Below are positions 1 to 8,611 of a stretch of DNA of 33,015 nucleotides, one piece after another (positions within the stretch are counted from its first letter, which is position 1; the number at the start of each line of letters is the position of its first letter). The stretch is from a virus. The notes below the pieces were generated by a model. That model saw only the letters and a list, made by a program, of their open reading frames with translations, ran no database searches and was not told the DNA's origin. The position numbers and the translations under genes were made by a program. The stretch lies in the IMG/VR virus record IMGVR_UViG_3300028025_002543, positions 1-33,015 of that record; one strand, given 5' to 3'.

Positions 1-150
1 TTATCTATACTATTACTTAATATATCTATAACTACACTTAAGCTTAGGTTTTTTGTGTTTATATAACATTCCGACTTCTCTACAGTAGAGTTATCCACAG
101 GGTTATCCACAGGCTTAACTGTAGGTTTAACCTTAGGTTTAACTAAGCCT
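1..150. other. Putative phage replication origin (AT-rich stretch plus iterons and DnaA boxes)
   Basis: Positions 1-70 contain only 14 G/C bases (20% GC), far below the surrounding sequence. They sit directly next to two perfect DnaA boxes and the 12-bp iterons. An AT-rich unwinding element beside ordered initiator sites, inside the initiator gene, is the layout of lambda-type origins. The origin may continue beyond the left edge. Seen: the repeats, boxes and composition. Inferred: origin function. Confidence 0.6.
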
Positions 151-734
151 TGCTTAATCTTAGACACCATAACTGTATCTCCTTTGACTGGTTTGTATAC
201 GTCTAACTTGGCCTCGGCTGGCCGCTTAAAAGCCTGCGCTAACATGCCTGCCAGCCTTGCTTTGTTGTCCCGGATCTCGGCCTCAGTCCATACTTTCTGT
301 AGCTCTCGGTTCTCATGTTCTATCATATCTGGCAGCCTCACATCTTCGTTTGATCCTGCTATCCCTAGCGCGTCGTCTGCGCTAATTCCAGCCCCATAAA
401 TAACCCTTATCGTGTCGCCCTTGGTGCCCTTCCAGCCCTTCTTTATTCGCTCTATATACCCGCATCGCTTAAGTACTGTTATCTCTCTGGCTACTGCGCT
501 CTGGTGCATACCTAGATCCGAGGCAATCCTATGCTGGCCGACATAAGTTAACCCGGCTCGGTTTGCATAACTGCAGAGCACGGCCAGCACGCGCAGCGCT
601 GCGTTACGTAGCCTAGGATCCGCGCAAGCCTTAAATGGAATAACTGCAAACTTTCTAGCGTCTGGTGGTGGTGCATGTTGTTTTATCCTAGGCTTTTCCG
701 GTAGCTTTAGGTTGTGGTTTGCTGGTATTTCCAT
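1..734 (-). CDS. Winged-helix replication-initiator-like protein (3' end off window)
   Basis: The frame is open from an ATG at 734 to the window edge (244 full codons), so the C-terminus is missing. Residues about 40-98 form a winged helix-turn-helix: a helical stretch RNAALRVLAVLCSYA, then a recognition-helix region around HRIASDLGMHQSAVAREI, then a basic wing (ERIKKGWKGTKG). This layout is typical of phage replication initiators of the lambda O kind. Residues about 198-215 are a short K-P-x-V / P-V-D-N repeat, encoded by tandem 12-bp DNA repeats that include two DnaA boxes, so the gene probably contains the origin its product binds. The start overlaps the end of the upstream gene by 28 nt; the AGG close to the ATG is a weak ribosome site. 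Initiator function is inferred from the fold and the embedded repeats; a plain transcription regulator is the alternative. Confidence 0.7.
   Translation of the reverse strand, partial: MEIPANHNLKLPEKPRIKQHAPPPDARKFAVIPFKACADPRLRNAALRVLAVLCSYANRAGLTYVGQHRIASDLGMHQSAVAREITVLKRCGYIERIKKGWKGTKGDTIRVIYGAGISADDALGIAGSNEDVRLPDMIEHENRELQKVWTEAEIRDNKARLAGMLAQAFKRPAEAKLDVYKPVKGDTVMVSKIKQGLVKPKVKPTVKPVDNPVDNSTVEKSECYINTKNLSLSVVIDILSNSID
91..150. repeat. Five tandem 12-bp iterons, two of them DnaA boxes
   Basis: On the plus strand, 12-bp units start at 91, 103, 115, 127 and 139. Each begins TTA, and the first four have AGG at unit positions 9-11. The first two units contain the perfect consensus DnaA box TTATCCACA (91-99 and 103-111). 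The next three are TTAACTGTAGGT, TTAACCTTAGGT and TTAACTAAGCCT. The repeats lie inside the initiator-like gene and encode its K-P-x-V / P-V-D-N peptide repeat. Confidence 0.75.
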
Positions 735-7955: not shown

Positions 7956-8171
7956 CGCATCATGTTTGGCAGCACAGATACCGTACAAAGTGACCAGTGC
8001 TATGTAGCTTAGAGCAAGTTGGTCCCACTGGTCACTTACAACTGGCTCGAGTTTAGGACAAGGTTCAGTTAGGTTTGCGGGTATTGGCGGATTCAATGGC
8101 AGCGTTGAGTTCCCGCAGCCGGGCAGTATCAATAATGCAGCCATCAGGCAAAGGCTTTTCAACAATGACAC
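7944..8171 (-). CDS. Outer-membrane spanin lipoprotein (Rz1-like)
   Basis: 75 residues from the GTG at 8171, which has GAGAGG seven bases upstream; an upstream TTG (8186) is less likely. A Lys-containing start and hydrophobic run end in the lipobox LPGC, after which a short Pro-rich stretch (LPLNPPIPANL) follows. Rz1-type lipoproteins are lipid-anchored in the outer membrane and pair with Rz to fuse the two membranes at lysis. Its start lies inside the Rz gene in another frame, and it extends about 120 bp past the Rz stop: the overlapping nested arrangement seen in many Gram-negative phages. Confidence 0.75.
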   Translation of the reverse strand: MSLLKSLCLMAALLILPGCGNSTLPLNPPIPANLTEPCPKLEPVVSDQWDQLALSYIALVTLYGICAAKHDALAR

Positions 8172-8430
8172 GGTTATACCTCTCAATAATTTTAGGCTTT
8201 GCGTCCAGCATTGAAGTGATCTGAGCCTGTAGGGTTGTGGATAAATCGTGTAGCCTCAGCGACTCCAGTCTAAAAGACTCGAGGTCTGCTAGGTATCTTT
8301 CTTTTTCCGCAGTGCTATAGCCACTGTGGTATTGCCACTTGCCATATCCCCATAGGGATAGCAGCACGCCAGCCACAGCCAGCGCGTAGACTACGTACTT
8401 ATTCTCAATGAGTTTTGCTATCCATAGCAT
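8065..8430 (-). CDS. Inner-membrane spanin (Rz-like)
   Basis: 121 residues from the ATG at 8430; a longer frame reaches 8490. One membrane span lies near the N-terminus (about 12-29, VVYALAVAGVLLSLWGY), followed by a periplasmic coiled coil (about 40-75) and a C-terminal helix. This is the i-spanin layout. It partners with the Rz1-like lipoprotein encoded in an overlapping frame. Its start overlaps the holin-like gene by 26 nt. Rz identity rests on topology plus the nested lipoprotein, not on sequence identity. Confidence 0.75.
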   Translation of the reverse strand: MLWIAKLIENKYVVYALAVAGVLLSLWGYGKWQYHSGYSTAEKERYLADLESFRLESLRLHDLSTTLQAQITSMLDAKPKIIERYNRVIVEKPLPDGCIIDTARLRELNAAIESANTRKPN

Positions 8431-8611
8431 TCTTGTCGTCCCAAGTTGCAAAGCCCATATAGGCGGTAACCACAGCTCCGACAAACCCATAGAACGGCAA
8501 GGCTATTTGGCCAAGCGTTGGCGATTCGGAGGCTAGTATTAGCAAAGGGAATAGCAGGCCAGCTATCAGCGATAGCCAAGTCATCTTGCGCCTGTTCTTC
8601 CATCTGTCCAT
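8405..8611 (-). CDS. Holin-like small two-span membrane protein
   Basis: 68 residues. A basic N-terminus (DRWKNRRK) precedes two hydrophobic segments (about 11-28 and 37-54), followed by a charged tail. This is a class-II-like holin topology, and the gene lies between endolysin and spanin. The ATG overlaps the endolysin stop (TAATG). Holins form the membrane holes that time lysis; the call rests on topology and place in the cassette. Confidence 0.6.
   Translation of the reverse strand: MDRWKNRRKMTWLSLIAGLLFPLLILASESPTLGQIALPFYGFVGAVVTAYMGFATWDDKNAMDSKTH

Follow-up and report, generated by a model that had tools for sequence, protein, structure and literature searches.

Positions 1-150 of this viral contig, the window of 33,015 bp analysed here as a whole, are best read as part of a theta-type, lambda-O-type replication origin embedded in the initiator coding sequence, with a facultative DnaA-box module resembling that of plasmid P1 (probability about 0.78). 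By analogy to lambda and pSK41, an in-gene origin is the most likely role of this DNA. The earlier note's proposal of an origin-like module in an initiator gene is supported: across homologues, the linker-coding DNA keeps DnaA boxes, palindromes and AT-rich sequence beyond the needs of the protein, and two homologues with a box array just outside the gene add further support. A widespread, almost uncultured family of small aquatic phages thereby gains a predicted initiator and origin.

An O-like initiator gene at the contig edge

At its right end the contig carries terL (terminase large subunit), which shares 80% identity with its counterpart in Methylophilales phage MEP301; the contig also encodes RecE/RecT-like and RusA-like recombination proteins; neither a polymerase nor a helicase was found among the contig proteins scanned. 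The gene covering positions 1-150 had been taken to encode a winged-helix initiator-like protein, an assignment that holds and can be refined to O-like. Its product matches Pfam HTH_36 (6.9e-9) and PHROGs 391, 345 and 678 ("replication initiation protein / O-like"), the latter weakly for the contig protein (5.9e-5) and better for relatives (to ~1e-11). An AlphaFold2 model of one homologue (L309) contains a confident winged helix (residues ~29-106), a linker with pLDDT <50 (residues 196-257) that corresponds to the putative origin-coding stretch, and a small helical C-terminal domain. Fold searching returned generic winged-helix matches, plasmid Rep/initiator domains included, and no Foldseek match fell below E 0.001.

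A scan of viral contigs with the contig initiator as single-protein query gave no match, and relatives were collected through terL neighbours and alignment search, yielding 122 homologous ORFs (69 non-redundant). Initiator homologues sit upstream of terL in these relatives. In the phage collection searched, MEP301 was the only cultured relative, and it is the nearest one; its homologous initiator (MEP301_gp55) is annotated as hypothetical, and the description of the phage named neither an initiator nor an origin (PMC8024684). No relative was found in the bacterial genome contigs searched.

Anatomy of positions 1-150

The two exact DnaA boxes, the five 12-bp units and the 80% AT tract that the earlier note had reported are all present in the sequence (Table 1). 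No other 70-bp stretch of the 33,015-bp contig is richer in AT than the AT-rich tract, which lies at the TAA side of the boxes; the layout of R1 and DUE in E. coli is the opposite, which counts against the in-gene origin reading.

Table 1. Coordinates of the features discussed (contig positions unless a relative is named)
Feature	Position	Strand	Remarks
O-like replication initiator gene	3..734	minus	244 codons present; C-terminal part missing, cut by left contig edge
AT-rich tract, 80% AT	1..70		Candidate DNA-unwinding element
CTTAGGTT	43..50 and 132-139	+ (43..50)	Only two copies in whole contig, flanking the boxes; candidate half-site
Perfect palindrome CTCTACAGTAGAG	78..90		Candidate initiator site, flanked by AT-rich tract and first box, which it abuts
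Exact DnaA box TTATCCACA, unit 1	91..99	+	Codes PVDN on minus strand
Exact DnaA box TTATCCACA, unit 2	103..111	+	Same strand, 12 bp from unit 1
12-bp box unit TTATCCACAGGG	91-102		First of five units (91-150)
12-bp box unit TTATCCACAGGC	103-114
12-bp unit TTAACTGTAGGT	115-126		KPxV codons
12-bp unit TTAACCTTAGGT	127-138		KPxV codons
12-bp unit TTAACTAAGCCT	139-150		KPxV codons
Dyad-like AACTGTAGGTT + AACCTTAGGTT	117-127 + 129-139		Within 115..150; candidate initiator sites
Third exact DnaA box, single	8236-8244	minus	Inside Rz-like spanin ORF 8065-8490; probably chance
Noncoding element, relatives (others also exist)	L124:33427-33612	minus
	L273:10808-11003	minus
	L155:3564-3806
	L168:3568-3791
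	L031:7120-7341
Other-family initiator genes	L017:9482-10546		Tandem/near-tandem boxes read as VDN/VDK
	L024:1823-2380		As above
	L224:5132-6415		As above

Of the 12 positions of the box unit, the three KPxV units share only 6-8; they contain AGGTT and resemble the family half-site AGGTT. Two features had been overlooked: the repeated CTTAGGTT and the palindrome CTCTACAGTAGAG, whose placement fits the box-dyad-AT order of relatives and whose like would occur in such a stretch in an estimated ~10% of cases by chance alone. The contig lacks the family dyad and its module is interrupted by the contig end; its own initiator sites are uncertain, with the palindrome and the AGGTT-containing units as candidates.

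This contig and four others (L292, L334, L352, and L359) all stop within the linker or the AT-rich stretch of the initiator gene, probably because assembly broke off at a hypervariable spot.

A conserved linker module in the long-ORF homologues

In the long-ORF clade (ORFs ~850-1030 bp, n = 41), the linker carries DnaA boxes, dyads and an AT-rich tract in this order. The boxes (0-4 per gene), found around nucleotide 600-670, are in frame and in most cases spaced at 12 bp and read as xVD(N/K). They are followed by one to three palindromes, typically ACAACCT-NN-AGGTTGT, of which a perfect ACAACC-N(4-6)-GGTTGT form occurs in 17 members; dyad spacing is 48 bp in fourteen members and 24 or 72 bp in others. 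Repeated in-gene dyads are a property of the clade, the contig itself having candidate dyads only. An AT-rich tract adjoins the sites within the gene, and DnaA boxes adjoin initiator sites, which in the contig are candidates. The genome's richest 70-bp AT window falls just after these linker sites in the contig and in three of the four full-length clade relatives examined.

The module is confined to the initiator gene in the relatives searched. The ACAACCTNNAGGTTGT palindrome (≤2 mismatches) was found in 4/7 full-length relatives, nowhere but in this gene, as were the exact DnaA boxes of 3/7. In-gene box pairs are present in the contig and 14 further homologues and absent in others. Because many members carry dyads without boxes, the boxes are facultative and DnaA is no general requirement.

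The earlier note had merged boxes and KPxV units into a joint host/phage binding array with a single shared 12-bp period. The general form of this idea stands, with boxes beside initiator-type dyads, at a distance of 23 bp in six (related) members. At the DNA level, tandem boxes at 12 bp recur among homologues, and the nearest relative (L126) retains three of them; it lacks the KPxV units, and the 12-bp array is not conserved. The shared period itself fares poorly, given the absence of KPxV units from L126 and dyads that in relatives mostly lie 24, 48, or 72 bp apart. Neither is it distinctive, since DnaA boxes in viral contigs are commonly spaced at 11-12 bp, mostly outside genes.

DNA-level constraint and alternative readings

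Shuffles of the contig (300) contained a mean of 0.25 exact boxes and not one pair within 39 bp. When synonymous codons were drawn with the peptide fixed and phage codon usage, two exact boxes appeared in 22/20,000 draws, the observed AT content in 0/20,000, and the 12-bp DNA period in 86/20,000. As boxes and AT content are this rare, the contig DNA is constrained beyond its protein; the 12-bp period exceeds what the peptide forces only modestly. In the 41 long-ORF genes, which are related and hence not independent, and which include the contig as starting case and a member found through box search (L037), all four counts lay above every synonymous-codon shuffle: 70 inverted repeats vs 18.0 expected (max 26), 52 near-boxes vs 14.3 (max 25), 18 adjacent box pairs at 11-13 bp vs 1.0 (max 4), and 17 exact boxes vs 1.4 (max 4). 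The same null gave no clear excess in 27 short-ORF homologues.

These counts bear on the reading that the repeats belong to the protein, with KPxV/PVDN codons duplicated in tandem in a proline-rich linker and the likeness to DnaA boxes a by-product. Each unit spans exactly four codons, the disordered linker is repeat-prone, and tandem duplication copies codons; yet synonymous draws seldom yield boxes, the 41 genes contain more boxes and palindromes than the codon null predicts, and the residues encoded by the boxes vary among homologues (VDN, VDK, VEK, VNN, and VDQ). Two distant homologues, moreover, have their arrays beyond the stop codon: five boxes at 12 bp just past it in L031, and seven DnaA-like boxes, spaced 11-14 bp, ~60-140 bp after it in L273, both noncoding. 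This points to DNA rather than peptide as what is kept, and we regard a purely protein-level origin of the repeats as highly improbable. The L273 array is the densest array of DnaA boxes in this analysis.

Regulation of initiator-gene transcription or titration of host DnaA, with the boxes no part of an origin, is unlikely but draws on real properties of DnaA, which is a transcription factor and through which lambda stimulates its origin-activating promoter (PMC7466680); the boxes are also not universal in the clade. Their location speaks against it, late in the gene and not in a promoter position, with dyads and the most AT-rich tract of the genome as neighbours, as does the recurrence of the box-dyad-AT order in relatives. 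The dyads and AT-rich tract might instead serve recombination, packaging or initiator autoregulation, for palindromes suit several dimeric DNA-binding proteins and these phages encode RecE/RecT-like and RusA-like proteins. We consider this very unlikely, as no separate dyad copy was found elsewhere in the relatives searched, and placement inside an O-like gene mirrors lambda and pSK41 (PMC7466680, PMC5703833).

Proposed mode of initiation

Under the in-gene origin reading, the initiator would join an N-terminal winged helix to a small helical C-terminal domain through a disordered linker, whose coding DNA would double as origin. Initiator dimers would bind the dyads and host DnaA the tandem boxes where present; the bound complex would then melt the adjoining AT-rich tract, and host DnaB would be loaded. 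The DnaA boxes would have an accessory role, comparable to that in P1, F or RK2. Searches for DnaB_C, IstB/DnaC (PF01695), and lambda P (PF06992) detected none of them in 10 near-full-length relatives, whose records may be fragments and which may encode a loader of another, unfamiliar type. This negative result prompts the hypothesis that box-bound DnaA may help to recruit host DnaB/DnaC. A bolder version, in which a codon-written origin serves two initiators, host DnaA loads the helicase for a loader-less phage, and the box module was gained, lost and shifted past the stop codon as the phage dyads persisted, is tentative, with the odds somewhat against it.

The detrended GC-skew minimum falls inside the initiator gene in MEP301 only, 1-2 kb away in the contig and two relatives, and far away in two; these minima are confounded because skew follows gene strand.

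Comparison with known origins

The closest parallels are lambda O/ori-lambda and Stx-phage O, with a winged-helix O-like initiator and mid-gene dyad iterons followed by an AT-rich tract (PMC7466680, PMC5043065). In lambda, O occupies inverted-repeat iterons as dimers, and opening takes place in the AT-rich region next to them (PMC5043065, PMC7466680). The phages studied here differ in dyad sequence and spacing, usually have two dyads, and in part of the clade add tandem DnaA boxes. They differ also in that no lambda-P loader was found in the relatives; a partner loader of the lambda P/DnaC type is a trait of lambda itself, not of every in-gene origin.

To our knowledge, the origins of the iteron plasmids P1, F, RK2 and pSC101 lie outside the initiator coding sequence. 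They are similar in uniting DnaA boxes, initiator sites and an AT-rich tract (PMC5043065). RepA_N plasmids, of which pSK41 is an example, share the winged-helix N-terminal domain, a central linker encoded by the ori and a separate C-terminal domain (PMC5703833); the ori-coding part of pSK41 Rep is this linker (PMC5703833), and Rep/initiator domain structures were among our fold matches. In contrast, DnaA boxes have not been reported in staphylococcal plasmids (PMC5703833), and no sequence-family match to RepA_N plasmids was found here. In repABC plasmids, oriV with its AT-rich tract lies inside the initiator gene repC, although no iterons or DnaA boxes were found there (PMC3155836), and silent mutations in the repC origin abolish replication (PMC3155836).

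The predicted arrangement would join two textbook plans, the in-gene iterons of lambda and the DnaA boxes of P1, in one coding stretch. The literature searched, which took in few subscription papers, yielded no description of DnaA boxes within the initiator gene of a phage. What DnaA contributes to a phage origin can be tested by comparing natural variants in which the DnaA module is present, absent or displaced, and by silent recoding.

Tandem boxes elsewhere and a noncoding element in short-ORF relatives

Tandem DnaA boxes are common in viral contigs, mostly outside genes, and have preferred spacings near 11-12, 21, and 32 bp, in keeping with helical phasing. The idea that tandem boxes are in every case VDN repeats within genes was rejected, as most such arrays lie in no ORF or in only short or antisense ORFs. 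Boxes within initiator genes of other families (Table 1) suggest repeated independent use.

Short-ORF relatives have no in-gene origin module. Near their initiator gene lies a conserved noncoding element of ~185-245 nt, which is also present in MEP301, where a shorter initiator carries neither in-gene boxes nor dyads. An Rfam search near the initiator gene matched no known RNA. The 3′ 71 nt of the element form two hairpins with covariation, in which 7/13 pairs changed on both sides and 99% of cells are paired. With a covariance model of these 71 nt, a single copy was detected in MEP301 and in each of the short-ORF relatives (3/3), whereas 7/7 long-ORF relatives and the contig gave none. Among the genomes searched, the noncoding element and the in-gene origin are mutually exclusive, and the element is a candidate new structured RNA.
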